64,000 nucleotides of DNA from assembly GCA_020746105.1 (NCBI GenBank), contig CM036618.1:115513308-115577307 (forward strand). Direction: 5' to 3'. The translations under genes and the position numbers were made by a program. The stretch comes from Trogon surrucura. Lineage: Eukaryota > Chordata > Aves > Trogoniformes > Trogonidae. Below are positions 11,901 through 52,500 of the stretch, piece by piece; position 1 is the first letter of the stretch; each line of letters opens with the position of its first letter. Below the pieces are notes generated by a model that saw only the letters and a list, made by a program, of their open reading frames with translations, did not search any database and was not told the origin of the DNA.

Positions 11901-13555
11901 CAACGGCAAGAGCTGCGAAGGTAAGGCAGGAGAAGGGTCTGGAAACCTTTTTAACTTCGGCCCCCACCCTTTTTTTTTTTTCTTGTTTGCAAGGATTTCC
12001 GCATGCAAAAAAATCTGATGGGTTTGCAGAGAGAAGTTAGAGGCAGAGGGTGAGGGGAAACAATGGAGGCAAACATATTGCCGAAAAAGAGTGCGGGAGC
12101 CTCACTGCCGTGGTGGAGGTGTCCTGTATGAAGGATGTCCCAGAGAAAAAAATACAAATAGTGTCAAAAAAAGGAAGAATTAGAGGGTGAGGGGTCAGCT
12201 CGGAGGCTGGTGGGGTGTGGGTGGAGAGCAAAGCAAATGGGTGGCCAGAATCGCTCCTGTGAAAATCTTCCCTGGAAATTTTTTTTTTTTTTTTTGTGCT
12301 GTAAGGTGTTGATTAGAGCAGTTCGTGGTGAGAAAAATCATGCATTCACTTTTTCTCCCCAATTCCTGCATTGTTGATAGCATCTTGCTAATGCTCCCAG
12401 CAAATTTCCAGCATCCAAAGCTCCCGGTTTTATATCTTAAAGGTTACTTCAGTGTTTAGCAAACAAAAAGAGATGGTGTTTCCAAATAACTTAAGGAAAG
12501 TTTGGAAAATAAGCTGCCCTCCTGCTGTGAGAACACAGCCGTTAACCCCTGCTGGCCCAGGGCAGGGTGATTTAGGTGTTTCCAGCCACCGTCCCAAACT
12601 TTTTTGATTGTATTTGACATTTGACCCGTTTCAAGCCTTATATATTAGGGGGCTGGTTAGCTCATTCGGTTAGAGCGTGGTGCTGATAACACCAAGGTCG
12701 CGGGTTCGATCCCCGTTCAGTCCCCATGTGTTGCCTGATCTAGTAGAGAGGCGTCCCTGCCCATGACAGGGAGGTTGGATTAAATGATCTCTAAGGTCCT
12801 TTCCAGCCTAGGCCATTCTATGATTCTATAATTTTCCTCCCAAAGGAACCCCAGGGCAGGCTCCTTTGGGGTCTCAGCGAGTGTGACCCCTCTTGTTTCG
12901 CAGACATTGACGAGTGCGCCCTGTCACAGGATAACTGCATGAGGGGGACAACCTGTATCAACACCGGGGGGGGCTTCCAGTGCGTGAGCCCCCAGTGCCC
13001 CCCGCCCGCTGGCAACATCACCTATGTCAAAACATCCACCTTGTAAGTGTGTCCAGGTGCAAAAACTCCCCCTGCTTAATTTTTTTTTTTTTTGAGGGGG
13101 AGTTGCTGGCTCCCAAAACCACCGTGGCGGGCAGGACATGGAGCCCGCGTGGCTGAAAACTTCCCCATTTTTCCCTTCCCAGCCAGTGTGAACGCAACCC
13201 ATGCCCGATGGAGAGCCGGTCTTGCCACCAAGCGCCCAAAAGCATCTCCTTCCACTACCTTCCCTTGCCTTCCAACCTGCTGACGCCCACCCCGCTCTTC
13301 CGCATGGCCACGGCAGTGGCACCTGGCCGGCCAGGACCTGACAGCCTCCGTTTCGGCATCGTGGGGGGCAACAACCGCGGGCATTTCGTGATGCAGCGTT
13401 CCGACCGGCAAACCGGGGAGCTCATCCTTGTGCAGAGCCTCGAGGGTCCCCAAACCATCCAAGTGGATGTGGACATGTCTGAATACCTGGATCGCGTCTT
13501 CCAGGCCAAGCACGTGTCCAAAATCACTGTTTTCGTTTCTGCCTACGAGTTTTAG
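8918..13555 (+). CDS. FBLN7: FBLN7, fibulin-7, secreted matrix protein
   Basis: Fibulin-7 is a secreted extracellular-matrix adhesion protein. Eight coding exons join in frame to 443 residues, close to the roughly 440 of mammals: 8918-9004, 10242-10401, 10483-10653, 10997-11122, 11230-11367, 11783-11920, 12904-13042 and 13183-13555. Domains in order are a leucine-rich signal peptide (about 1-29), a short coiled coil containing QQLLKGQETRF, a Sushi/CCP module (about 83-139), an EGF-like module (SECSSSPCQNGGTC), two calcium-binding EGF modules starting DLNEC and DIDEC, and the fibulin-type C-terminal module ending in VSAYEF. The ATG at 8918 is chosen because it opens the signal peptide, whose exon splices in phase to the coiled coil. 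Cysteine spacing is intact. The exon at 11783 follows a CR1 remnant directly, and a tRNA-CR1 SINE lies just before the exon at 12904. Confidence 0.95.
11470..11770 (+). mobile_element. CR1 LINE 3' fragment abutting an FBLN7 exon
   Basis: The text around ggcaggagagttgatcttct, then caaggccaagtgctgggtcc, and finally ggactcgatgatcttaaagg matches the 3' end of avian CR1 in sense orientation, with an internal deletion. It stops about 12 bases before the AG of the FBLN7 exon at 11783. The probable branch-point zone of that intron is therefore LINE-derived. The left boundary is approximate. Confidence 0.75.
12648..12832 (+). mobile_element. tRNA-Ile/CR1 composite SINE (TguSINE1-like)
   Basis: The first 79 bases look like a tRNA-Ile. 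There is an A-box-like TTAGCTCATTCGG, an anticodon arm with loop CTGATAA (anticodon GAT), and a B box GGTTCGATCCC. It is followed directly by a CR1-type 3' tail containing catgacagggaggttgga and tctctaaggtcctttccagc, ending in the octamer-like repeat ATTCTATGATTCTAT. This head-and-tail layout is that of TguSINE1, known from finches. The acceptor stem does not pair well at standard tRNA length, so it is not a working tRNA gene. It sits about 70 bases before the FBLN7 exon at 12904. Confidence 0.8.
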
Positions 13556-14375: not shown

Positions 14376-17300
14376 GGGGCGATATGCTCACCCAGGGGGA
14401 GCTTCAGGTCCTCCAGGTGAGAACCTGTCTCACTTATTTTTATTTTTCTGCCTTCTGTTGCTTGGAAGAGGATGGCTGGTAGAAGGGTGGCTCATCCCTG
14501 AGCATCCTTCCACCCTGAGCATCTTCCAGAGACCTCAAGGAAGTGGAGCCTGCTGCCCTCCCCCCCAAAAAACCAGGCAGCGGGTCAGAGTCCCACTGGA
14601 GGGGGCTGAGGAGCACCCACTAAAATCCTTCCCACCTCACGCAATGGGGGAACAGACTTTATGAGACCCATCTGTGCTGCAGGTTTGGGTGGATGGAGCT
14701 CCCAGGTTTTTAAATTTCTTTTTGGAGGGGGGTGTTACAGCTTCTCTGTGGGAGCTCGGGAGGGGGGGCAGGACCTCTCTCCCCACCGAACAAGGAGGGA
14801 CATTCAGCACCATCTCCTTGCGGTTGCAGGATGGAGGATGTTTGGGTTGGCGAGCGCCAGGGCCAGGCCGGGAAATGCGTCCCAGGAGGGAAATGAAAAC
14901 CCGACAGGCTCACTCCTCTATCTTGAAAAAAAAAAAACACCTCAAAAAACCACCCAAACAACAAGAAAATTTCTTTTTTTTTTTTTTTTTTTTCCTGGAA
15001 GCATAGCTGCTTTCAAAGCCTGGGGGGTGGTGGAGCTGCAGGAGGACCATGAGGGGAGGAGATTTTTTTTCATTTTTGGGACCACCTCGCCCCGTGCCTG
15101 CACCCCAGGATGCAGCAAAGGTTTTTCCTCAGAGCTCCCCAGCCAAGCAGCAGTGTTCTGTCCAGGAAAGTGAGCACTTAGCCTCATGAACCCGGCCTGG
15201 CGTGTGGTTTAAATTAACGCCTTCGCTAAGAGAGCAGCGCCGCGGAGGCGGCTGGCCGTGTCCTCGGATGCCACAGAAGAAGACAGGGAAAAGGAGCTGA
15301 GCTGAAACGAGAAGGAATATTTTATTTTTTAAATTTTTTTTCCACCATCTCTCCTGGCTGCAGATCTCGCTTTCAGCCCCAGAAACGTTTAAGGTCGGCT
15401 CTCCAGTGCCTGGACTGGACTGCAAACCTCTGGCTGACGTTTGAACTGACTAAAGGAGATTTTTACTATTTTATTATTTTTTTTATATATACCCAGAGCA
15501 GCCGCTCCAGCACCTTGCAGTCTCCCCGAGGCTGGAATGTGCAGAGGAAGGCTCTTCTGGCCCAGGTGAATACAACTTCTCTTTAGGATAATAATATTCT
15601 GGAGCTCAAAAAATAGCTGGTTTGTCTCTGCTCCCCTTCTGCTGGCTCCAGAGCTGCTCTGTGTGCCCCGGGGAGGGCTTGGCTGCCTTGCCAGAGCCCC
15701 AAAGTTGCAGTTTCTCAACCCAAAAATGCTGGAGACCTGGCACCGAGCTGGCCTCAGTGAGGTGCCGGGTGAGAAATATCACACCTTTGAATTTCCGAAT
15801 GATAATTCTCTCTTTAACAAGCAAGAGAACACCAGCTTATTGTCAACAGTGGGTTAAAAATGTGAATTTTTATTACCTTTTTGTGCACACGCACATGAAA
15901 ACACTTATTAATCCCATTACGGGCTTTAACAAAGAGCCGAACCATGACTTTTTTTATTTGTTATGGTTGCTAGGGATGTCGCTACGCTCTCCACAGATCC
16001 TAGTGGGATACCCAGGAACGCATCCTGGGGAACATGTTTAGCTGCTACTGCCAAATTTAGTTAGATTTTGGGATTAAAAAAAAAAAAAAAGCCACTCAAG
16101 AGCTTCTCAGAAGCCTGTCTTTTCCCCGACAACACAAACCCTGCTATTTGAACAAATGGCTGCTCCTGTCGACAGGTTTTTGTTTGAAATGGGATTTTTG
16201 CACCTACAAGGAAAGGGAAAGATAGGTTTTCATCCTGAATTTTAAATCCTCTTTTTAATTTTTTTTTTTCACTCCGTTGCCTGGGGAGATGGAGCTGAGC
16301 CCTGTGGGCACTGACTTCTGGGATGCTGATCGGACTAATTAGTCTTAATTAATGGCCCCTCCCCAGCTTCACCTGAGGTCACCACCCACAGCCTTCCCAC
16401 AGTTTCAGTCCCAGGGTGCTGGGCTGCAACCTGGAGGTTTTCCTGACTTGGTTTTGGGTGATTATCCAAATGGGAACCGATGTGGGTGTTCTCTTCTTTT
16501 TTTAAATATATTTTTCTAGGATTGCTGGCACTGGAAAAAGAGTCACGTGTCCCTGCGAGCCAGGGAGACCAGCCCGTAAAGGAAAATAGAGTTGATGTCA
16601 CTTACTTGAGGATTTTTTTTTTCCCCAGAGAGCTTTGACAAAGTCCTGCAAAAGATAACATTAGATGAAACATCATAAAAAAAGGGCGGAGAACAACAAA
16701 CAAGTGTCTCTGGGGAACGATGAAGTGCTGAGAGTCAGCAGAAGGATGGTGGAAGTAAAAAAAGGCAGAAATGAAAGGTCAGTTCTCAGTTCGAGCAGGT
16801 GGGACATCTCCACTGTCGTCGTAAACAGCCACATAAAAGTTAGTGGAAGGAGTGACCATGAGGTGATGGTGCTTTATGTGATTTATTTGAATTGGATGGG
16901 GCCCATCCCGAGGTGAAGGTGCCAAGCTCAGAGAACGTGGTACTGCAGAAGAGGATGAAATTCACTGAAAAAAAAAAAAGGAAAAAAAAAAAAAAAGATG
17001 GTGAGAGCGTTACTTCACTGCCAGAACGTGGGCGTGATCCATCCGAAGGCACAGGCCAGGCCTGTCCTGGCCACTGCACCCGTTCAAATTAAATTGTCAA
17101 CGCAAATAGTGCAAATTTTGGGGATGTGTTTGTATTTTTTTTTCCATTAGATCTTCAGTGATGCTCTTCAGCGTTTTGTCCCACGGCTCCGAGGAAGGAT
17201 TTCTGAGCGCGTTTTGCATTTCCTCCCTCTGGAATGAAACAAAGGTCCCTCAGCAAGAGGCTGAGGAGTGGGGTCCTGCCCCTTCTCCCTCACTTCCACA

Positions 17301-17500
17301 CAGGCTAAGGCCACGGTCTCCTCTTTTAACACTGGTTTCTCCCCCCTCCCCCGGCCCCATAAGCCCCTTCTCTAATTAATTACCGTTAATTAATTACCCT
17401 TATCCCCGCGAAAGCACGGGATTTCCCCTCCTACAAAACGCTTCCCACCCTTTAACCTCGGCGGGGTGGGCGTGACGGGTTTTATGACCTGTGTGGGGGT
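14376..17500. other. intergenic FBLN7-ZC3H6
   Basis: This gap holds AT-rich homopolymers, simple sequence and one probable CR1 remnant (see 16540-16960). I find no spliced gene. Human 2q13 carries ZC3H8 between FBLN7 and ZC3H6, but I see no third set of CCCH finger exons here on either strand. Confidence 0.55.
16540..16960 (+). mobile_element. probable decayed CR1 ORF2 remnant
   Basis: A stretch reading tagagttgatgtcacttact followed by agctttgacaaagtcctgc resembles the CR1 reverse-transcriptase region that encodes an LDFSKAFD-like motif. Further on, gtgaccatgaggtgatggtg also recalls CR1 ORF2. Poly(A) insertions interrupt it and no frame survives. This is the least certain repeat call in the window. 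Confidence 0.4.
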
Positions 17501-17559
17501 GGGAAGCGCTTTTTTTTTTTTTTTTTTAATATATATTTTTAAATTAAAACCGGCTGCTT

Positions 17560-18214
17560 TTAATTAGGAATGTCAACCTGCGAACATAGTTACCGGTCGG
17601 CTCCATTGCGGCGGTGCGCGCGCCGGAGCGATGCCGGTTCTCGAATCTCGCGAGGAGCGGCCCGGAAGCGCCGCGCGGGGGCAGCGCTGCTGGAGGGGGC
17701 TGAACACACCCGACACGTTCCGCCACCACGGCGGCCGCCATGACGGGCGGCGGCGCGCGCACGTGACGCCAGCCCGCACGCGGCGCGGCGGGACGCGCCC
17801 CCCCCCCCTCTCCCTCCTCCTCCTCCTCCTCCTCCTCCTCCCCTGCCTCCGGCGCGCACACGTCCGGGAGGGGCGGGGGGGCGGAGCCGGCCGCTCTCGC
17901 CGGACGTCACCGCCGGCGTGACTGTCTCCGTCGCCGCCGCCCAATAGGCGACGCGGTCGGCGCGGTGACGGGCCGGCGCGCCAGCCAATGGTGGCGAAGG
18001 GGCGGTGGCGGCGGGAGGGAGGGGAAGGAGGAGGAGCGCGAGACGGGCTCGGCGGCGGCGGCGGCGCAGGAGCGCGGGGCGACGCCATCGCGGCCCCGGC
18101 GGTCTCTGGAAGACGCGGTGGTGCGGGCGGCGGGACGGACGGACGGCCGGCCGGCTGGACGGCGGGCCCGCGGCCCCTGAGCGGGGGGGGCAAAGCGCCG
18201 GGGGCGTCGCTGCT

Positions 18215-18247
<33 letters not shown>

Positions 18248-18762
18248 CATCGTCCTCTTCCTCCTCGCCGCCGCCGCCCGCCGCCGCCATTTTGTGAGAG
18301 TGCCTCGAGCGGGCGCCATGTTTGTAAGGAAGAATTAGGGCAGCCATCTCCGGCCACCAGCACCTCCCTTCCCCCGTGTGTGTGTCCTCTCGTTCTCCTG
18401 TGCCCCGGGCCTGCTCCTGCGAGCCGCCTCCGCCGCCTTCCGCCGCCTCCTTCCTCCTCCCGCCCGCGCGGGGCGGCCGGGCTCAGCCTGTGCAGCCTCG
18501 CCCCGGTGCACTCTCGCAGTGCCCCGTTAAGTGTCTCACTAAGTAACCGTGAGTGAAACCTTCATCATCTTCTCCTTCACTCGAGGGGGACACCCGAACC
18601 CTCCTCCTCCTCCTCCTCCTCACCGAGCCGCCCCCCAGAGCGGGCCGTGCGCGCCGCCGCCGCCACCTCCTCCTCCCTCCGCACCACGGGCAGCGGCAGT
18701 GTCCTGCCTTCCTCCACCTCCCTCCTCCTCCTCCTCACCACCACCACACCACAGCCAGCACA
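17560..18762 (+). promoter_or_regulatory. ZC3H6: ZC3H6 CpG-island promoter and 5' UTR
   Basis: About 1.2 kb of extreme CpG and GC richness precedes the ZC3H6 start codon. Two CCAAT boxes lie at 17941-17945 and 17985-17989. YY1-like elements follow: CCGCCATTTTG near 18285-18297, and gcgccatgttt near 18315. Two CCAAT boxes before a YY1 motif suggest a housekeeping promoter starting transcription roughly between 18020 and 18350. CCT/CTC trinucleotide runs fill the 5' UTR. Exact start sites cannot be seen from sequence. Confidence 0.65.
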
Positions 18763-21700
18763 ATGGCCTTTGAAAGCCTGTTCTCCAAACCCCCAAACCC
18801 AGTTCTTGACCCAAACATGCCCGACTCTGACAGGCAACATGCAGGGGACGAAAGGTCGAGTAACATTCTTCTCTCTCTCTCTTCTCTCTCTGCTTCTCAT
18901 AACGGTGATACTTTAGTGATGATGATGATGATGCTGATGATGATGATGCTGTGTCTTAAAATGTTTTTGTCGGGGCAGGTCACCTTCAGGCTTGGGAAGA
19001 ACCGGGGTGGGAAGGTTGTTGTTGCTGGGGGGGATGTAAGAAATGCAAGGAGGGGAGGTGTTGGGGGGGTGTCACTGAATTAGAAGTGCATTGTTAGGAG
19101 AGGGTTTTTTAAAAATATTTTTGTTTTTCTGGAATGCATGCGTTTTTACATCTTCATTTATTTATTCTGGCCGGGAAGGGGGACGGTTTTCCATTTCTTT
19201 CCATAAATTGCACTTTTCCACAGCGGTCTGTTGAATGTCACCATTGTTCTTTTTTCTCCCTTGCTAGTGAGGTAGGAAAGGGTGCTTTGAGTTGTGTTGC
19301 TTTTATTTTTTAAGATTTTTTTTTTTGGTCAGTTTTGGTTTATGCAAGAATCTCTCCCCAGATCCATATTTAATGTCATTTTGTTGCCAGATTACACCTT
19401 ACACATTTAACTGGATTTTTTTTTTTTTTTCTTATGCAGATTAAGGTCTGACTGACGTTATCTTTGCCACCTCTCAGTCCCCATGCGCAGAAAACCAGAG
19501 TCCTGTTCCTGGTGAAAGGACCTCTGTTCCTCCCTCCCTCCCCTTTCTCTCCTGCAGCTGCTGGAAATTCAAATCCTTTCTCCAGGCAGCCCTGACCTCC
19601 CTAACTAGTTCCAAAAATACTCCGCCAGGGTGACTGTGTTGCCTGCAGCTACGGAGTCCTTGTCTACATTTACTCAGAGCATTCGTGACACAACTGCAGG
19701 AGTTAAAAGTGCTGGTTTTCCACAACTGGGCTTCAGTCTCTCATCCCCACCCAGCTCCACAAGCGTGCTCGATGCTTGCTTTAGAGGGCTGAAAAACAGT
19801 TGGAGGAAACAAGAAGAGAAAAGGGAGAGAAACAGTCGCCGATTGTGTGTGTTACAAAGCGGGAAGGGCCCCAACAAGCTGACCTGACCAGTCTGAAAAT
19901 AATCATGCTGTGGTTTAGAGTGAGCAGGTTTGAGGCAGCCCCCGGACCTGCCAGTTCTCCTTTGCACCTTCCTGCTTTTTGAAACGGTGTTAGTTGTGTC
20001 GTGCTGGATGTGCCCCCCCCCCCCCAAAAAGAGTGAACCAGTAATCCTCTGGGATTGCTGGAGGGAGGGCAGAGCTAACTGTTAAAACTCTGCAGAGGGT
20101 TTTTTTTTTAGAGTTCCTAGGGTTAGTAAGTTTTGCCATTTCAGGGCTTGAAAAGGCTTCGTGGTTTTTCAAGTCCTCCTTGAGGATGTGCCTGAGTTAG
20201 CCACTGCTTTGCTGGAAGCATTTTTTTTCCTAACTCGGAGTTGCTCATGAGGTGTCGACAAGCAGAGTTCCTCTAAACCAGACGTTCTCACCAGTTGCTA
20301 CCCTGGTAAATTATGAAATGGAATAAATAAGTGCTGCCTCATAGCCTAATGTGCTTTTAACACAGGTTAATTTCTATTGTTGCCTTGTAACGTTTTAATT
20401 TTGTAAGAGCAATGAACACCTTTGCCTGTTAAATAATAACTTTCTTGTAAACAAGGCTTCTACGAAACTTCTGTTCCCCTCTGAGCTGAGACCTGTGTAG
20501 TTAAAGTCTGTTCTTGATACACCTGGTTTAAAAAAAAAAGCAACAAAATCCCGACAAACCCAAACATAAGCTTTTGGTTAGGTTAGATGTGCAAATGTAA
20601 CATTGTAAACTGCGTTGGTAGCTCAGTAGCGCTGGTTTTCTGTAGGTACAGCCCATAACAGGAAGCTGCTGAAATCATTTCAACGTTTTGGATTGATCTG
20701 CCCGGCCTAAATGAGGAACATTTCTATTAGCAATTAGTTAGCTTGGTTTGGGACTGATCTGTAGATTTCTTTTTAAAGAAGTTGGTCAGTGGTTTTGAGC
20801 GGTAGAGAAGAGTGGAAAAGAAAAACCCCTCATCCGTCCATTACTTTGAATATTCCAAGTTGGAATATTGTTTTTAATCCAGAGTCTTTGTTTTCTTGGT
20901 TTGTAGGTGGGGCACCTGATTAAGAGAGGCAGGCTTCTCATTCTTTAAATATTTCTAGTTAACTCCTTGTGGAGACTTCGGTGAGGTATTGCAGCCTTCC
21001 TGTACACAGAGACCTCAAGGTGTGGTTTTGAAGTTTTATTACTGGTTGCTTGTTACGTAGAGAATCTTGGGCAGGGCAAGAAAGATTTGCAATCACCAGG
21101 AACTTTAGAAAATAACTCGGAATCTGTTTATTTTTAAAATCTATGACATTGGGTCAGTGCTGATACTTTCTGTTGGCTCTCCGTGCTTTGCTGTCATTGA
21201 ATCTCTAGACTTGGTGCTTTCTTGCACCATTTTTTGCTCTAAAAAGAGCCGTGACCGAACAATGGGTTCTAACCCATCTGAGGTGCTAACTCTCAGATCA
21301 CAGAGTAGTCTTACAGAGTCAAGTGTGCAAGTGTGAGTGTCAGGCCCTTTTTTATGTCCTTGTGATACAATAGAGGAGGTTTTCTATGTTGAAGGTAGCG
21401 AGATTGGATTTTCCCAGTTCCCTTTTCCACCCTCCTTTCTGTGTGCTCTGATTCACACCCTGCTGCTCCAACAGGTCCGGCTGGTTCTCCCAGAGACCTG
21501 CTCTGCTCGCTCACACCCAGTTGTGGCCAGCACGAGTAACAGCAAATTGAAAGTTGTGTTATATACAAATACAATATGTGTCATCCAGACCTCCTGTAAT
21601 CCTTGGTGCCGTTGTCCCAGTCTGCTCTCCCAGTCTCCCTCGCCACAAGGCTTCCATCCCTCTTTAGCCAACAACTTAAATGCATTGCTTTTCCTCTCCC

Positions 21701-38325: not shown

Positions 38326-38331
38326 TTTATT
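38326..38331 (-). terminator. poly(A) signal of vinculin-like gene
   Basis: TTTATT on the plus strand reads AATAAA on the minus strand, about 580 bases past the TAG stop codon at 38913-38911. It gives the minus-strand gene a 3' UTR of about 0.6 kb. Confidence 0.55.
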
Positions 38332-38910
38332 TTCAGAAAAGAAGGTGTACAAAGCAGGGAGGAAATGGGATTTGGAAGGGGCCAGCTCCTTGCAGCCGTG
38401 TCTCAGTGGGTAACCGCCTCCTTCCTTCCTTCTTCCAGATCCTGGCCTGAGCAACAATTCCCACCGCTGCTGGAAACTCGTCCCCTGAGGCTGTGAAACA
38501 CGTGGGGAGCAGCATGAGCTGTGAGGTGGGTGATCTTCAGCATTCAGCGTTTTACTCTGGGTACAGGAGAGTTCCTGGGGATGAGAGAGATTTGGGGAGA
38601 AAAGTCTTGTTTCTCAGCAGGATTTGCAAGGGCAACCGGTAAGACAAAATGCTCCCCAGATGTGAAAGAGTAAATATGAAAAGAGTAAAATGTTTGTCAG
38701 TTCTCTGGGCTGCAGAAAATCCTGAGCTTTGCTAGGTCACCACCTGCTGGTTGCTGCCCCGCGATAAAAATACTTGTACGGAGATTTCTGGCCTCCTTAG
38801 CTAGCCTGTTTTAATTTTTTTCTTCCATACTGAAGAGACTCCAATCCTTCATATTGTGAAGTAAATAATTGTATTCTTGCAAAATGGAGAGTATTTAAAT
38901 ATACTCCGCT

Positions 38911-41900
38911 CTAGCAGAAATCCCTTCCTGTTTCTATGTCCATCCATCTGTCCCTAATTTTATGTCCTTTAATATGTTTTGGATGCTTGGGGGTATTCCT
39001 GGTCTGAGGTGATAGTTCTTGCATCAGTGTGGGTTCAGTTTTTGCCCGAGTCTTCCGGAGCCCTAGTTCATCCCTGTCTGAGTTTAAAGACTCCTTGGCT
39101 CTGTGCCACCACAGGTTTTTTCTCCACCTCATGCAAAAAGCAGTTATTTCTTCTTCTTCGGAGTTGGGTGGAGGCTGTCGCAAACCCTGGTAGGGGGGAA
39201 AAAAAAAGAAAATATTTCCATGCTTTAATATGTTGTTGGACAAGGGGAGAGTCCGGTTGGATTTGTGCTCGTTTCCCAAGTGCTTTCAGAGAAAATCTGC
39301 TCTCACTAACTATTTACAGTTGGGTCAATCAGCTGTCATTTCCAGCTGCAAGGGAAGCTCTTGGGAGTTTTGATCAAAGCTTACCTCGAGATCTCTAACG
39401 AGATGCTGCTGCTTAACTTACTTTGACACATGCTGCCTCAGCTGCCTTCAGAACATGTGAAACTGCTTGAACTAAGTTCCATGCATTGCTCACGAGCAGC
39501 TCAGAAGAGGACTTGCTCTCCCCGGTGACTGCTTTGACCCTGCAAACACATTTTAAAGGGTTTTACTGGAAGAGTGTCGGGCAGTGAGTGGAGAGGGAGC
39601 TCCCTGAACTGTAACTCAAAGGGCTACAGCCAGATCCAACAAGGACGTCTGGAGACCAGTGAGCACGTCTCTTTGAGCCACTGCCAGCCTCAGGAGAGAT
39701 GTCCTTGACCTCAACGACTCACCTGGCCACGATGGTGAGCTGGCTGCTGATGGTGTGGGTGAGCTCCACGGCGCGCAGCAGCTCGGCGGAGCACCTCGCG
39801 TCGAGGCAGTGCTTGGCGACGACACAGCCGAATTTTGTGAACACCTGCACATCGGAAGCGATTTGCCTCGCGCAGGCGACGAGCTGCTCCTTGCTCTAAA
39901 CCAAAATAGAAAGAAATGTGTTTTGGAGGGTGAGAGGAAAGAATAAAAAAAAAAATAAAATCAATTCTCTTGCAAGGCAGGAGAGGGGTCCAGGACGTAT
40001 TCTGAAATGAGGGAAGGACTGGATGCCAAGTTCATATCTCATCAGGAGGAACTATTTTTTAGTGCTTTGCATAAATATAGCTAGTGCACTTTTAGAAGAG
40101 CAGGGTAGTGTAGGGGTTTCAGTGCGGACTGGGCTTTGACCGTGCTCTTGAGGCAAAAATGTGCTGGGGCAGGAGAGGTTGAAACGCTCTGTACCGTGAT
40201 GGGGCCCTTCTTCCTCAGGAACTGGGTCATGTGCAGCATCCTGGTCGCCATGTCCTTGGTGAGCTGGGATATCTTGCTGGGACCACCCTGCCATGTGTCA
40301 CCAGCTTCTCTCTCATGCTTTGCAGGGCCACTGACAAGATTGATGCCGAGAAGACTGCTCTGGTGCTGTCAAGACAAGAACTGAAGAGATTCAAACTCCG
40401 GAGCGTGCAGGCGCACCAATGCTGAGAAATGTCTGCCAACGTGTTTCTTGAAGCGGTTTTGGGTGAGTGAAGGAGACGGGAGAGCTGCCCACCACCTCGC
40501 TCTGACCTTCCCAACCAGCCCTTCTCCCCTCTGCTTTCACCCATGGTGGGATTATCAATTCTCAGTGCCCTGTGCTATCATTTCTTGGAGCTATCATCTC
40601 CAAACAGGTGGGAGCTGTCATGCGAGTTGAAAGCGCTGGTGGTTTAGAAGCGCGATTAAATGCTGTAAAGCGCTCTGCTGAGGGATCGGGGTCGCGTCAC
40701 TGCAAAGCCTTTGCCACCTCCTGACACCCGACAGTGGTTGTGGTAGTGGAGTTGCTAGGAGTCCTGTGGGGAGGGGAGCTGAGCAGAGGCAGGTAGTGTT
40801 TCAGGGGAGGGAGAGCAGCACAGCCCCCATGCTCTTCAGAAACAGCCTTTTGGAAGTGAGTTTATTCATGCAAGAGCATGTGTCAGATCAGGTATCTGGA
40901 ACTCAGCAGAATGGGGTGGCCAGCAACCTGATTTTACCATGAAGGTGGCCACAGGGTCAGACTATTTGACCTCCAGAGGTCCCTCCCAGCATCACTTATC
41001 TTAAGGCTCTGTGGCGTGGGTACCAGAACTGACCAACAGCCCTGACCGTCACCCTGCAAAAAGTGTTGATGGGGTTGAAATAAAGGTATTGTACCATTTC
41101 ATGTGCCTCCCCGACAGCTCCACTTGCTTGTCTGCTCCTGCTCGGGCAAGATTCTGCTGACGGGGTGTGAGCATCAAGCTCTCGGGCTGGGAAAATCCTG
41201 TCCATGCTGCCACGTTGTCTTGGAGAGCCCTGGTCCCCCACGTTCTGCAAGCATTGTGTGATGAGCTGCAGAAGGTGCCCGCTGATGCCCTGGACAGCCC
41301 GAAGCTGCATGAGGAGGTAGTGTGCTTTTGCTGACCAGTACCAGACAATACTGTCCAGGTGGAGGTGCCCTTCATCCCCACGGCTCTGGAAAAGCTGCCT
41401 GGCACCGTCCACCGCGTTGGACGTGAGGACCAGGAGGTGGTCTGCCACAGAGAGCAGGTTTGTCTGTGACTGCAGCTGAGCGCTGGCCTCCAAAACCTCT
41501 TGGAGAGTGGTTTTGACCCACTGAACATTGGCCATCAGGCGACTTGCCTTCTCTTCAAAGGCCTGTCTGCTCCTCTCCCCATCCTCTAGAGAGAGCAGGG
41601 ACAGGGCTGGTCCCACAACGTCTCGGATGACCTGCAGGTGGTCGGTATTGATCTCCTCCAGGTGGAGCAATAATGCCTTGGCCCTGAGGGCCAAGTCTCT
41701 CTGCAGGAGCTCAAAACGAATGTACAAGCTGGCATTTGGCAGCGGGGAGACCGTGAGGGTCTTGGAGGCATCCAGCAGTGCTTCCATTAACACCTTCACC
41801 TCCTCCCTGAGCACTAGGATTTCGCTGCAACCATGGGCTTTAGGGCAGGACAAGTAAGAGAGCCAGGCGGCCTCCTCCAGCCTCAGGGAGTTCTCGGATA

Positions 41901-44900
41901 CAGCAGCCAAGAGGCTCTGAGGGCAAAGCTTGTTCTTCACGGCACACCTCAGCTCCTTGAGGAACAGGACGTCCCTGCCTATGAATCGATCCAGAGCGCC
42001 CAGCAGGACCCGTGTGCTGATGGCCCACTGGAGACACCGCAGCTCCAGGCTGGCCCTTCCCACCCCACAGGAGCTTTCGAAGGACACTACTTTCTTGAGT
42101 AACACTTTGGTGTTTGCCTGAGCACGTGAAAACTTGGCTTGCACCTGCAGAAAGCTCTCCCAGGTATCAGGGGAAATGAGATTTCCTTTACTAGGGGCCA
42201 TCCTTGCAATGTCTCCTGCTAACTGAACTGCTCCTGCTAAACTCGTCATGGTCTCGTCCAAAGCCTGTTTGCCTCTCAGAAAGTTAGCCGACAAGATGAA
42301 GCCAAATACTTGCCGAGACAGACCGTACCAAGCACCTGACACAGCCAGCAGGCACTCCTTGGTCTCGCAGATCCTTCTGGAGAGCATGAGCGCCATTTGG
42401 AGCAGCCTGCTTGGAGGATGAAGCTGCCTCGGGGCCATTTCCCTGGCCAGGCTAATAACGCGGGGTGTCAGGAGCGCGATCTCCTCATGCTGCCCCAGCA
42501 TCTCTGTGTGGGGAGGCTCGGTGACGGGCAGCGTTTCCTTTGCCATGTCGATGCAGCTGTTGGAAAGTTCGAGCAAAGCAGAGCAAGCGGCGTCGACAGC
42601 TGCCGAGTCATGGCCTCGTGTCGCTGCCAGGAGTGCCATAATGACAGGGTGAATATTGCCTTTCCTTGGAATGACATCTGACTGTAAGTCACCTCGTTGG
42701 GAAGATGGATAGCTTAAAATGTCTGCTTGCACTGCAGCCTCTGCCATAGTGGTTTTTAGCTCAGCGTGTGATGGGCTGAGCTCAAGCCTCTTTGCAATAT
42801 CAGTGCTTCGCACTTGTTCCCGGAGAGGGCTGAGGATATCCGGGTGGTTGGACCCGTCCAGCCCATCTTGGACATGGTGAGCAGCATCCATGAGGCAGCT
42901 CACTGCCTTTGAGAAGACATCCCTAATTTGGGGGCAGGAGAGTCTCTCCGGATAAAGGGCTATGACCGCTTTCAGCTCAAGGATAGAGTTGGCCAGTTGC
43001 TCAACCCAAACCAGCAAGCCGTTCCTGAAAATGGGGTCTGTGGCTCCATCCACATACCTGGTGGTAGCTCCAACCACCCACCGAGCCCAGGTGGTGAGGT
43101 GAGTCGCGTACCGAGAGAGGCTCTTGGGTTCCTGATTTTCCAGGGCTGCCTCGCAGCGTTCCCTGTGCTTGGCCATTTCCCGGAGAGACACCTTGAGGAG
43201 TTCATGCACGCTCACCGTCTCCTCAAAACACCTCAAGAGGCTTTCTGTCATTCCAGCCCACATGTGATACCAGGACTGCAGTTGCTCAGCGGCCCTCGCC
43301 TGGGCTGTATTCCTGCTCATTTCCGTGAGCAGTGGAGGGAGGCTGCCAAGGACTCTCTTCAGATCCTCTACCCGCTCCCCAATTTCTCTAGCGGTTTGGG
43401 TTTTGGTGCACCTGAACAGAACAAAGTCTGCCACCCGAAGCATTTGCTGGACGTATGTGAAGAAGGTGGCAGTGACAGGCCGAAGCTTCTTTAAAAATCC
43501 TCCTTGTCCTGCTGTGCCAGCAAGGCTAAGGGCATCTTTGATTAACTGCCTTGGGGGCTCCGTACCCTCAAAGAAAGTGTTGAGGGTTTGACACAGAGTA
43601 GCTGTGAGCACCAGCTGGTCAAGATTCTCCACCTCCTCTCTCATGGTGTGACACTCCTTCTCCAGGCTGCTTTCTCCCCCGCTTTGCCCTGGCCGGCTTA
43701 GGTGGCTGCAGATGCTCTTCCTCAACTGCAGCAGAACCCAGCAATGTTTTATCAGGCCCAGCTTCATATCTTGGCTGGATGAGTCTGCTAGAAGCATACA
43801 GCAGAAAACAACCACTTCCACATGAGCACTCAACTCGCCGTCAGAGAGGAGCAATGGGTCTGGGCGAGAGAGGAGAGCCAGCAGCTTGCTCACGTGCTGG
43901 GAGAAAGTCCCGTGTCTGTCCCACGGCTCCTCACTGCCTGGATTGTTGATGAGCAGGGAAATGAGCTCTTTGATGGTCCTCTCCATCAGCTGGAAAGAAT
44001 GATCTTTGGAGAGGTTGATTTGCTGATCCCAGGAGTGGTTAAAATCGCTGTGCTTGGCTGCGTGGAGCAAAGGAACGCATTTTTGTAGGAGCTGCAGAGT
44101 TTGGGCCAAGCTCTTCCGTCGAGGACGATCTCCAAGTTCCTCGAGGCACTTCACTGTCAGATTGCTCAGCAGAAGCAAGGCCTCGGAAAAGGTCCGGAAA
44201 GCAGTCAGCAGTCCTGGCATGTCCCCCACATCTCGCAGCATGCTCAGGCACTCCAAAAGCCAGCTGGCAGCGTGGATTATCCTCCGAGCCCCAGCAGCAT
44301 CTTCGATCTGAAGGATCTAACCGGAAAAAAAAGCAAGAAGCACTGGTTCAGAGTGGTGAAGGCTCAAGAATCCCTGCTCACTCTTTCACCCCTTGTGCAC
44401 CCAAGGCTCCAGCCAGAGCTTTCTCCCCAGCCCCTCTCCTGGTGGAGAGCTGCTCCTGTCTGTCCTATGGCTGCACCCACACCCAGCGTTACCTTCGCTG
44501 TCTCTGTTAAGACCTCCTTTGCCGCTGCAGCCAGCTCCTCCCTGTGTCTCGAGTTCTCCGGCCATGCCTGGAGCTTGCGGGCCGCCAGCAGCACACACCT
44601 CCCTGCCAGGATGAGGGACTCGGCTGTGGGGTGTGTCTGCTCCTTCAACACCTCGTCGCCAGACTCCTCAGCCAACCTGGAAGAGAAACCGCTGGGCTCA
44701 GCTCCTCAGGTTTCAAAACCTTTCCTCCTCACGTTCCCTCCTCTCTGGCGGCGCAGGAGCACCGAGTGGGAGAGGAAGGGACCTTCCTCCTCCTTCCCAG
44801 CCCCCAAATCTGCCCTGGGGAGACAGGGAGCAAACTTACCTTCTTGCGACAGACACGAGCTCTTCTGTGGCTTTGGCTAATCTTTCCGCGTTCTCCCCTA

Positions 44901-45045
44901 AATGGAGGAAGGCCGGACGAATCCCACCTTCCTGCTCCAGGGCGAGGGTTAGGTGGCAGAGCTGCGCGGCCATGGGGCAGAGGATCCCTTGGATGGCTTT
45001 GTTTTCTGTCAGCAACCCGAGCTCGCAGAGGTAAAAAGGCTCCAT
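38911..45045 (-). CDS. vinculin/alpha-catenin superfamily protein, unassigned paralogue
   Basis: Seven exons on the minus strand join in frame to 1449 residues: 45045-44840, 44676-44493, 44316-41095, 40365-40195, 39895-39723, 39539-39422 and 39186-38911. Family evidence is strongest at the ends. Residues about 18-70 (IQGILCPMAAQLCHLT, then an acidic turn) align with vinculin's first helices. The last four exons align with the vinculin tail: KHEREAGDTW, then LTKDMATRMLHMTQF, KKGPIT, LVACARQIASDVQ, VAKHCLD, ISSQLTIVARVKAV, SNAWNLVQAV and FCMRWRKNLWW. Family members link adhesion complexes to actin, so a cytoplasmic adhesion role is inferred. It is longer than vinculin (about 1066-1134) or alpha-catenin (about 900), with a basic C-terminal extension after the tryptophans. 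About three quarters lies in one exon. The donor at 41095/41094 (ATG|GTACAA) is weak, so this junction is the least sure. I cannot name a mammalian orthologue. Confidence 0.82.
40870..41000 (+). mobile_element. possible old CR1 3' fragment
   Basis: The text gactatttgacctccagagg, then tccctcccagcatcact, recalls the end of CR1 in sense orientation. It lies in the intron between the large exon and the 40365-40195 exon of the minus-strand vinculin-like gene. It is strongly diverged. Confidence 0.45.
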
Positions 45046-45300
45046 CGTGTCCTGCCGGGAAAAGGGGAACAAAGCCTGGGATTAATCTGGTGTCTTTTGC
45101 GGCGCCTCTCCTCGGTTTTACCGGCGACCTCTGGAGTTGGGCCGGGATGCAGCGGCGGTCGCCATGGAAACGCTAAGAGCGGCGTCGCATGGCTGTGACG
45201 TCATCGCGAGGCGCCGGCCGCGGCGCACAATGGGAGTTGTAGTCCGAATTGGGAATGGGTGTGGGGCGGAACTGGAACACCTTTTCTGTCCTTTCTCCTC
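45046..45300 (-). promoter_or_regulatory. promoter of vinculin-like gene with CRE and ZNF143-type site
   Basis: A full palindromic CRE (TGACGTCA) lies at 45196-45203. Next to it, at 45224-45245, the minus strand reads ACTACAACTCCCATTGTGC, a close match to the ZNF143/THAP11 element (ACTACAAYTCCCARMATGC type). CpG content rises locally. This is an actively built promoter just before the start codon at 45045 and supports that start. Whether it also fires to the right is not visible. Confidence 0.7.
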
Positions 45301-45908
45301 ACTTTCTCCTGTACCTTTAAAACCGAATATCCAATGGGAATGACGGCCCTGAGCTCCAGCTCAACGTCCTGCCTCAGAGTTGAAGTAATTCTGTGGAAAC
45401 TCAGTAGCGTAAAGAAAAGGAGAATTAAAACTGCAGGAGGAAAAAAAAAAAAGACCTTCAGGTTGGGATAAATTCACTTTTTCTTGTTGCAGTGGGTAAG
45501 TGCTTTGGCCGTGGAGTGGTAGGGATCGATGATAAGACCTAAGCAGTAGCAGCACGTGCTGCTTGTGAATGTCCCTTGAATAAACAGCAGGTGCTGGACC
45601 CTGCTCCCGTACCCTCCTGTTTTAACCTCTCCCATCCCAGCCCTTGGCCTCTCACACGGTCCTCACTGTGCTGTGAAGGTGCTGGAGCCGACCGACTCCG
45701 GCCGTCCCCGCGGGTGCGGGGGGATCCGGGATTTTAAAGGACCTGCAGAAGGAGGTGGGAGAGCTCTGAAGGCCTCCGTGTCGCCACACTCCCACGTGGG
45801 ATTGGGCGTCCCACTTCCGAAACACCGCAGAGCTGGAGGGGAAGCCCTGCCGGGTGAGCCGGCAGTGTGGGACTGCCCTCCCCTCAGTGGGGTGGTGGGA
45901 TGTGGCAT

Positions 45909-46310
45909 AATCGTGTAACGGGTGTCACCGTGCAACGGGCGTCGTCGTGCAACACACATGGCGCAACACGCGTTCTCGTATGACACCCATCATTGCGCAG
46001 TGGCTGCCGTTGTGCAACGTGCATTGTGCAGTGTGCATCGTTGTGCAACGGGTGTCACCGTGTAATGCAACGGGTGTCATCGTGCAATGTCTGTTGTGCA
46101 ACAGGCATCATCGTGCAACGGGTGTCGCCGTGTAACGGGTGTCATTGCGTAACAGGTGTCGTGCAATGGGTGTCACTGTAATGGGCGTCGTTGTGTAACG
46201 GGTGTCGTTGCGTAAAGAGCGTCGTGTAGTGGGTGTCACTGTGTTCATGGGTGTCACTGTGTAATGAGTGTCGTGTAACGGGTGTCACTGTGTAACGGGT
46301 GTCACCGGCC
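45909..46310 (+). repeat. 17-base minisatellite upstream of NAPB
   Basis: About twenty imperfect copies of a unit near GGGTGTCACCGTGTAAC run head to tail for 400 bases and end about 220 bases before the NAPB start codon. Copies vary mainly at the CAC/CGT/CAT step and by small deletions. The array is CpG-bearing. No protein is supported. Confidence 0.85.
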
Positions 46311-46529
46311 CACGGGGCCTCGCTGCGCGCGCCTCCACACCACCACGACACGCGCCACTCGCCCACGCCCCGCCCATCCCCGCCGCCACGTGACCCGCGC
46401 CCCGCCCATCCCCGGCGGCTCGTGCCCCCTCCCCCACCGCTTCCTTGCGCGCGCCCGCCCGCCGGTGCGGAGGAGGAGGAAGAGGAGGCGGAAGAAGGAG
46501 AAGGAGGAGGAAGAGGAGGTGCCGGCGCG
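46311..46529 (+). promoter_or_regulatory. NAPB: NAPB CpG-rich promoter and purine-rich 5' UTR
   Basis: Between the minisatellite and the NAPB ATG lies a CpG-rich stretch with repeated cgccc boxes (Sp/KLF-like). A GA-rich run at about 46468-46520 (gaggaggaagaggaggcgga and similar) probably forms the 5' UTR. Confidence 0.55.
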
Positions 46530-49500: not shown

Positions 49501-52500
49501 GTCTTTTACGTACAGGCACTGCTTGGAGGTATCAGGGCATGGGATTGTTTTTTGTTTCCTTTTATTTATTGAATTTAACACTGTAATCGGTTGCAGCTCA
49601 GCCAATAAGTGTCTGCTGAAGGTGGCTGCCTACGCCGCGCAGCTGGAGCAGTACCAGAAGGCAATAGAGATCTACGAGCAGGTGACGGGGCGGGGGGCGA
49701 AAATGGTTTTGCCAGCTCCTAATCTCATTTATTTTGGGGCTGGGGATGCCTCTCGGCTTTTAAGGGTTGCCTTAACTTGCCAGAGGCCTTTTTTTTCCCC
49801 TAAATTTTATTGCTTTTAGAGAAAGCCTGGGGGGAGGAAATCTAGAATTACCCTTTACAAATACATTTAACAAATACATTTAAATGACATCTCTATCATT
49901 TTGATTCGCAGATGCCGCACATCATTTTAATCGTCCATCCTGTTTTAAGTTAATTTCTCAGTGATGCATTTTGTCTTTTTTTTCTTTCCTTGCTCTAACC
50001 ACCCCTTCTGGTGCCCAGGTGGGGACAAACACGATGGATAACCCTCTGCTCAAGTACAGCGCGAAAGAGTATTTCTTCAAAGCTGCTCTGTGCCACTTCA
50101 TCGTGGACGAGCTCAACGCGAAGGTCAGTGGGCTCGAGACGCTTCCCCCGAACTTTCTGCATTTCTCTTAATCTCCTGGCCCTCTCTGCAAGGTTTTAGG
50201 ACTGGATGGCCAAAAAAAAAAAAAAAAAAAAGAAAGAGCACAAACATTCCTTTTTGCACGAAACAAACATTTGGGGTTTTCTTCATTTTCAGCTTGCGCT
50301 CGAGAAATACGAAGAAATGTTCCCGGCGTTCACAGATTCGCGAGAGTGCAAGCTATTGAAAGTGAGTAAAGCCAGCAGGAAGAGAAATTGCGCTTGGAAA
50401 CGCATGTGATTATTATTAATTTTTTTTTTCCCCTAACTTTTAACGGCATTTTCCTAGAAACTGCTGGAAGCACATGAGGAGCAGAATAGTGAGGCGTACA
50501 CCGAGGCGGTGAGTGCTTGCACATTTGCTATGTGCTGGGTGTGTTTTTAGATAGATTTTTGATTGGAATTCCGTTGTTTGGTTTTTTAATTTTAATTGTG
50601 GTGTAGTTTTTCTTTTCCTCTTCTCTCCTTCCTCTTCCCTTTTCCCTTTTTTCCTTTTTTTCCCATCCCTCGTCCCTCGTCTCCGCTCCTCTTTCCCTTT
50701 TCCCTCTTCCCTCGTCTCCACTCCTCTTTCCCTTTTCCCTCTTCCCTCTTCCCTCTGCCTCCCTGTTTCAATCCCCCCTCCCCTTTCCTCTCCTCCTCTT
50801 CCTCTTTCAATTTTTCCTTTTCCCTTTCCTCTCATGTTCACTTCCTTTTCACGTTCGTCACCATTCCTCTTCCCCCTCTTTCCCCTTTCCTCTCATCTCC
50901 ACTCCTCTTCCCCTTTCCCTCTTTCCCTTTTCTTTTCCCCTTTTTCCTTTTCCCTTCCCTCTTGACTTCCCATTTCTTTCCTCTCATCTCCACTCCTCTA
51001 TCCCTTTTCCCTCCTCCCTTTTCCCTTCACTTCCTTTCCCCTCCTCTTCCCTATTCCCTTTTTTCCCTTTTTCATGTTACTTTCCCTTTTCCCCTCCCCT
51101 CCCCTTTTTTCTTTTTCTTTTCCTTTTCTCCTTTCTCCTCCTTCCCCCCCTCTTCCCTTCCTACTTCCCTCCTCTCCCCTCCTTTTCCCACTTCCCCTTC
51201 CCTCCCTTCCCCCTTCTCTTCCTACTTCCCTCCCCTCCCTTTCCCCTTCCCTCTCTAACCACTTCACTTCCTCCTCCCCTCCCCTAACTTCCCTTTCCCT
51301 CCCCTTCCCCTCTCACTTTCCTCTCCATCCTTCCCCATCAAACTTTATCTCTGTGTATCCGTGTGTACATGAGTGTCTCCGAATGTATCAGTGTGTATCC
51401 TACTGTATCCAAACTTATCCGACTGTATCCGTGTGTATCCGAATGTGCATCCGTACTTATCCGAATGTGTCTTGGTGTATCCTAGCGCATGTGTGCTTCT
51501 GAACATATCCGAGTGTATCCATGTGTATTTGATTGTATCCATGTGTATCCGACTGTATTAGTGTGTATCCATATCTGACTGTATCCGAATGTATCCGACT
51601 GTATTCTGAACATCTGTCTGTATCTGAACTTATCCGTATGTATCTGAATGTATCCAATTACCTCTGTGTGTATCCGAGTGTATCTGACTGTATCCGTGTG
51701 CATCCAAGGGTATCCGTTTGTATCCAACTGTGTTAGTGTGTATCTGCTTTCCAACTTATCTGAGTGTATCCTAACATATCCGTGTGTATTCGAACGTATC
51801 CAACTGTATCTGAGTGTATCCGACTCTATCCTTGTGCATCCGAATGTATCTGTGTTGATCAGAATGTGTTGGAAGGGGAAATGGAAAAGGAAAAAAGAAG
51901 GGAGAAGGTGAAAAAGGAAGAAAAGGGAAAAGCAATGGAGACGAGGGAAAGGAAAGGTAAAAAGGGAAAGGGAAAAGGAAAGGGAATAGGAAAAATGGAA
52001 AAGGGAATAGGGAAGAGGAGGGGAAGGGAACAGAAGAGAAGAGAAAAGGGAAGGGAAAAGGGAGGAGAGGAGAGGAAAAATGGAAAAGGGAAAAGGGGGG
52101 AAAGGCGTGGAGATCAGGAAAGGGAAAAGGGAGGAGAGGAGTGGGAAAAGGGAAATGGGAAAGAGGAGTGGAGACAAGTGGAAAGGGAAAAGAGGGAAAA
52201 GGAGTGGAGATAAGAGGAAAGAGAAAAGGGAGGAGAGGAGAGAGAAAAGGGAAATGGAGAATGGGACACAGCAGTGGAGGAGTGGAAAGGAAAGGAAAAG
52301 AGAAGGGGGAAAAGGAGTGGAGATGAGATGAAAAGAAAGGGAAAAGGGAGGGGAGGAGAGGGAAGAGAGAAGAGGGTAGAAAAGACTAGAAAAGAGAAAG
52401 TAAAAAAATAGAAAAGGAGAGACTAGAAGTGAAACTAAGAGAAAAGAAAATAGAAAATAATTCAATAAAAATTAAAATAATAGTAAAGAAAGAAAAAATA

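Follow-up and report, generated by a model that had tools for sequence, protein, structure and literature searches.

The DNA analysed here, called the window below, is a stretch of 64,000 nucleotides of a bird genome (contig C2, 115513308-115577307; the genome surveyed comprises 1,165,559,148 bases in 164 contigs). On its minus strand, from 45045 to 38911, exon joining yields a predicted gene of seven coding exons which encodes 1449 residues and has its sole stop codon at the end. The initial annotation had proposed a minus-strand gene of about this size, and its coordinates, strand, length and quoted motifs were all reproduced. The gene lies among neighbours that are putatively ZC3H6 and NAPB.

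Several other features of the window were recorded. Between the start of the 1449-residue gene and the NAPB-like gene, which is arranged head to head with it, there is a CpG-rich minisatellite with a 17-nt unit (45904-46314, about GTGTAACGGGTGTCACT). Downstream of the first exon of the NAPB-like gene comes nearly pure pyrimidine sequence (~50.6-51.3 kb), then a 10-nt minisatellite, GTGTATCCGA, at 51353-51850, and finally ~1.2 kb of nearly pure purines; between 50600 and 53200 the pyrimidine and purine sides pair as imperfect inverted repeats. A strong CpG island at 17300-18900, with an observed/expected ratio of up to 1.38, is perhaps the promoter of the ZC3H6-like gene or of its neighbour, and a tRNA gene on the plus strand (12651-12723) is the only match in the window to Rfam at the gathering threshold.

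Gene model and flanking elements

Table 1. Predicted gene, its flanking elements and the five standard paralogues in the same genome (positions are those of the window unless a contig is named)
Feature	Location	Strand	Residues	Content and support
ZNF143-like motif ACTACAANTCCCA	45231..45243	-		single match in the window, both strands searched
Full CRE palindrome TGACGTCA	45196..45203			sole copy in the window
Possible 70-nt 5' UTR intron	45052..45121	-		donor 5.2, acceptor 10.6
Coding exon 1	44840..45045	-	1-68	first helix of vinculin D1 head; donor 12.6; D1 alignment to VCL
Coding exon 2	44493..44676	-	69-130	D1 head; acceptor 9.8, donor 7.2; alignment
Coding exon 3	41095..44316	-	131-1204	remainder of D1, middle (M/D4-like), extra segment, most of linker
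Extra segment	41227..42786	-	641-1160	without detected homologue; nearly all helix in a low-confidence model
Linker start	41095..41226	-	from 1161	S/R/P-rich, without a PPPP run
Coding exon 4	40195..40365	-	1205-1261	last part of linker, first part of actin-binding tail; acceptor 8.4, donor 2.0
Coding exon 5	39723..39895	-	1262-1318 and two bases of 1319	tail; acceptor 8.7, donor 12.4
Coding exon 6	39422..39539	-	to 1358	tail; acceptor 4.3, donor 9.2
Coding exon 7	38911..39186	-	1359-1449 and stop	end of tail; acceptor 11.5, composition
Candidate poly(A) signal (AATAAA or ATTAAA)	38326..38331	-		position alone
VCL	C8, 23.416-23.476 Mb			exons read around PF01044 matches
CTNNA3	C8, 34.71-35.01 Mb			exons read around PF01044 matches
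CTNNA2	C7			exons read around PF01044 matches
CTNNA1	C17			exons read around PF01044 matches
CTNNAL1	C6, 67.145-67.235 Mb			exons read around PF01044 matches

The gene model is dominated by exon 3, a single frame of 3222 nt with 1074 codons and no stop, whereas in 200 dinucleotide-preserving shuffles of this exon, with all three frames read, the maximum was 362 codons. Its two other sense frames contain 44 and 30 stops, and its GC content at codon positions 1/2/3 is coding-like (0.60, 0.43, 0.64). The start codon at 45045-45043 has A at -3 and G at +4. At the other end of the gene, exon 7 encodes the end of the tail, CMRWRKNLWW, and then ~60 more residues; the last stretch (1373-1449) carries 18 K+R against 10 D+E.

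Splice sites were scored among all such sites of the window. Exons 3 and 4 are followed by weak donors (2.1 and 2.0, in the top 24-25% of GTs), while the remaining four of six lie within the top 2.6%; five of the six acceptors are also in the top 2.6%, that of exon 6 standing at 11.6%. The join of exons 4 and 5 is supported, since the residues flanking it continue in alignment with the alpha-catenins free of gaps once the residue of the split codon is counted; VCL is two residues shorter just ahead of this position. The join of exons 3 and 4 and the 5' boundary of exon 4 fall in the unaligned linker, so the boundary is provisional. A start of exon 4 at 40317, which gives a protein of 1433 residues, was rejected, its acceptor scoring -1.6 versus 8.4 at 40365. 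The Pfam and PDB-sequence searches given below used this 1433-residue model, which is short of 16 linker residues.

The gene start is spanned by a CpG-rich stretch (44801-45500), within which lies the motif ACTACAANTCCCA, presumably of ZNF143 type. This site and the CRE, both upstream of the start codon, begin 47 bases apart. Beyond the stop codon, further candidate poly(A) signals start at 38815, 38318 and 37952.

Family membership and architecture

By eye, the initial annotation had assigned the joined protein to the vinculin family, and the profile search bears this out: the 1433-residue model matches Pfam Vinculin (PF01044) with 202 bits (E 2.3e-59) against a cut-off of 38.1, the part of exon 3 at 42790-44316 by itself reaches 63.8 bits, and two stretches of the gene exceed the cut-off in a six-frame search of the genome. 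The whole-genome search with PF01044 gave 54 matches, around which exons of VCL, CTNNA1-3 and CTNNAL1 were read, names which we assign provisionally. All five are found at other loci of the same genome, so that the gene studied here is an additional paralogue, separate from each of them as had been proposed, and is not the VCL of this genome. The resulting count of six superfamily genes is a lower bound because the best 53 of 61 candidates were scored. The paralogue proteins used for comparison are partial: VCL is without its D2 exons, each CTNNA without at least one exon and CTNNAL1 without several.

Among PDB sequences the best-matching stretches delimit the architecture. VCL is matched (1.5e-35) in three stretches which correspond to D1, the D4-like part and the tail, with residues 15-267, 462-636 and 1180-1342 (1433-residue numbering) falling on VCL 6-263, 681-856 and 949-1115. 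CTNNA1 is also matched (3.5e-27), its best stretch placing residues 55-591 colinearly on 47-583 of alpha-E-catenin. The ~220 head residues that vinculin has between D1 and the D4-like stretch are missing. The predicted head is therefore the compact run of bundles of an alpha-catenin, and the ends of the protein are vinculin-like.

In place of the polyproline linker that vinculin has, the D4-like stretch is followed by ~520 extra residues and then, before the tail, by a linker of ~70 residues rich in S, R and P. There is no PPPP anywhere in the 1449 residues, and hence no polyproline linker of the VCL kind, while the VCL of this genome has proline runs in one exon. The early remark that the protein is longer than its relatives and that its central part is strongly diverged comes down to one feature, for the added length and the diverged middle are this same segment. 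Wrongly joined exons do not account for the segment, since it shares one uninterrupted exon with the homologous middle. Three cuts of it found no family in Pfam up to E 10 and no match among PDB sequences; compared with the family members of this genome, the best phmmer E was 0.031 and the hhalign probability 0.3%. We saw no sign of a duplicated head within it, and a genome search with the segment alone returned a single copy, namely itself. In a fold search, 0 of 94 matches reached E <= 0.001, which says little as the mean pLDDT of the model was 39.2.

For residues 131-649, the single-sequence AlphaFold model (mean pLDDT 50.3) gave 238 Foldseek matches at E <= 10, and all 11 of those at E <= 0.001 were family chains, of alpha-catenin and vinculin; in a second look at this same model with VIA-align, designed helical bundles tie with vinculin. 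Such fold retrieval agrees with the family assignment, yet it is not independent of the sequence. Taken together, the predicted protein is a member of the superfamily, is identical with none of the named members and has a different architecture.

Tree placement, introns and origin

The relationship to the five standard genes was analysed in a tree of six rows and 611 columns, with a single VCL row and with residues 641-1225 of the new protein left out. The initial annotation had supposed a gene lying outside VCL, CTNNA and CTNNAL1. For the latter two this stood, because AU tests rejected a grouping with CTNNAL1 (p 0.011 under the mixture model and 0.0005 under LG+G4) as well as with CTNNA1-3 (p 0.017 and 0.0004). 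With regard to VCL it did not stand in the same way: the 1449-residue protein is on the VCL side and pairs with the single VCL row at a support of 100/99, the bootstrap of this tree not having settled. Separate trees of D1, middle and tail gave the same split, with supports of 95/95, 96/94 and 97/95 under LG+G4 and of 80/83, 86/65 and 99/98 under the mixture model. The new protein has by far the longest branch (1.81 versus 0.97 for VCL under LG+G4), which is saturated and under the mixture model reaches its upper bound; the letter composition of the protein is odd as well. The placement is nevertheless unlike long-branch attraction, since there is no pull towards CTNNAL1, the other long branch.

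In raw identity, the protein is ~24% identical to VCL overall, and VCL is clearly ahead solely in the first half of D1 (26%) and in the tail. The second half of D1 is 20% identical to VCL versus 21% to CTNNAL1, and the two parts of the middle are 19% and 20% identical to VCL, the first versus 20% to CTNNA3. The tail is the best-kept part, with 36% identity to VCL (49/137) and 42/144 to CTNNA1.

None of the six introns coincides with a defined intron of VCL, CTNNA1-3 or CTNNAL1. For this comparison, 35 paralogue junctions were listed (12 in VCL, seven in each of CTNNA1-3 and two in CTNNAL1) and compared by position, with further exon ends judged by eye in the alignment; at least three of the junctions bridge missed exons, namely NAPP/DLKA and ISDP/LTDE in VCL and LTKT/AKMT in CTNNA3. 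The nearest paralogue intron in D1 is three columns off and in another phase. VCL and CTNNA1-3 have an intron in common at LTPQ/VVSA which is missing from exon 3 of the sixth gene, and this implies the loss of one or more old introns. Nothing in the pattern as a whole points to a sister gene having been duplicated recently.

How such a gene arose may be explained in several ways. One explanation, which we regard as quite possible if short of probable, is a fast-evolving copy of VCL made within vertebrates, by retroposition or by genome duplication, which lost the old introns, gained others later and would fall inside the VCL clade. The pairing with VCL as a whole and in all three parts, even at its lowest supports, the loss of the shared LTPQ/VVSA intron and the longest branch of the tree all speak for it. 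On the other hand, the identity to VCL is very low for a protein that changes slowly, a duplicate from genome doubling would be expected to retain its intron positions, and six introns gained after a vertebrate retroposition would be unusual.

A second explanation, towards which we incline somewhat less, is an ancient fourth clade kept in some vertebrates and possibly kin to an alpha-catenin-like clade of early animals. The lack of any defined intron in common, the very low identity and the architecture of its own would agree with such an age, and an uncharacterised alpha-catenin-like clade including ctenophore proteins is on record in the excerpt of PMC13245172, which cites Miller et al. 2013. 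Both that clade and the present gene would lie outside the three named clades; the 1449-residue protein, however, is on the VCL side and not on the alpha-catenin side. Nor did contig collections contain relatives: there were none among the prokaryotic contigs (genome_contigs, 20 pattern matches) or the viral ones (viral_contigs), a null result which, these being prokaryotic and viral, says nothing about other birds. More specifically, and about as likely, such a fourth clade may have been present before the vertebrates, been kept in sauropsids and been lost in mammals, with a giant actin-binding tension adaptor carrying an extra helical rod as its product; it might then have been overlooked because the cataloguing of the family in adhesion biology has drawn chiefly on mammals, flies and worms.

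Two further explanations fare much worse. It is very improbable that the gene is a pseudogene or an unexpressed relic with an open frame: the weak donors after exons 3 and 4, the odd composition and the long branch could be read that way, but all seven exons are open, exon 3 far beyond the shuffled expectation, and the CpG-rich start carries the CRE and ZNF143-like motifs. The idea that the eye was mistaken and the gene is just VCL, an alpha-catenin or alpha-catulin draws on the family resemblance and can be dismissed almost entirely, because all five standard genes lie separately on C6, C7, C8 and C17 and the AU tests reject the CTNNA and CTNNAL1 groupings; given these gene assignments, this identity is refuted in this genome.

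Predicted function and place in the family

Our preferred reading is that the gene, distinct from all five standard ones, is probably a sixth vinculin-superfamily member which belongs on the vinculin side of the vinculin/alpha-catenin split, with a tension-bearing actin linker as its presumed product. The tail keeps the vinculin residues I997, V1001 and K1002 as I1316, V1320 and K1321. Ile1316, encoded in exon 5, corresponds to alpha-catenin I792 and Val1320, in exon 6, to V796, so that a C-terminal F-actin-binding domain with its I/V pair is recognised by sequence alone. As described in excerpts of PMC7588230 and PMC6269467, I792 and V796 of alpha-catenin contact actin and their mutation has effects; for vinculin, I997 and V1001 are likewise reported as an actin contact in the excerpt of PMC5384775, according to which vinculin does not need this surface in order to localise to focal adhesions. 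Of other tail positions, R1060 and K1061 of vinculin are occupied by K and N in the 1449-residue protein, which also shares with vinculin an RW near the end of the tail and with the alpha-catenins a KGP motif.

In vinculin, the T12 residues hold the head to the tail. Numbered as D974, K975, R976 and R978 in the excerpt of PMC5384775, two of these four are kept in the alignment, D and R staying and K and R being replaced by A and S. With two of four changed and the polyproline linker missing, autoinhibition would be expected to be weaker than in vinculin and partners of the proline-rich type to be absent. In the head, a change of vinculin A50 to I blocks talin binding according to the excerpt of PMC7039207; this position is A in the 1449-residue protein and also in CTNNA1, and it is compatible with binding of the talin type and no more.

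Under the preferred reading, the 1449-residue protein would serve as a long, tension-bearing adhesion linker of vinculin type that binds actin. Its D1 head would dock on a helical vinculin-binding-site peptide of the talin, alpha-actinin or alpha-catenin class, the extra segment would add helices and thereby lengthen the lever, and the tail would bind F-actin via Ile1316 and Val1320.

Compared with known members, the closest is vinculin, the tree partner, which has the same D1 with its first helix, the D4-like stretch and the actin-binding tail, and from which the protein differs in identity, in clamp residues, in introns, in the missing head residues and in the linker region between head and tail. 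The alpha-catenins share the colinear head, and grouping with them is rejected. Alpha-catulin, likewise a lone paralogue of the superfamily, lacks a 110-residue region of alpha-catenin according to the excerpt of PMC9569426, whereas the present protein carries ~520 extra residues. In the CTNNAL1 of this genome, as read by eye in the exon VHDDDKPLLLLEAEKLISMCKQLQITAKASVQGKSATFTK, the V1001 position is A, unlike the V of the 1449-residue protein, and the next lysine is S, which hints at actin binding weaker than in the sister proteins.

The family is given as vinculin, alpha-catenins and alpha-catulin in the excerpt of PMC9569426, and the same three clades, with chicken or finch sampled, were recovered in the excerpt of PMC3141441. 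Among the open-licence papers searched, none was recognised as describing such a vinculin paralogue from birds or reptiles. The sixth gene may well already have a machine-made LOC entry in the vertebrate sequence databases.

Vinculin anchors sites of cell adhesion to the actin skeleton. The chick embryo and the vinculin of chicken gizzard are classic material of the adhesion field. A further paralogue of other length would be a force-bearing actin linker of birds that stands outside the work based on mammals, and it would allow a test of how far the head and the tail of this family can be separated and still work.
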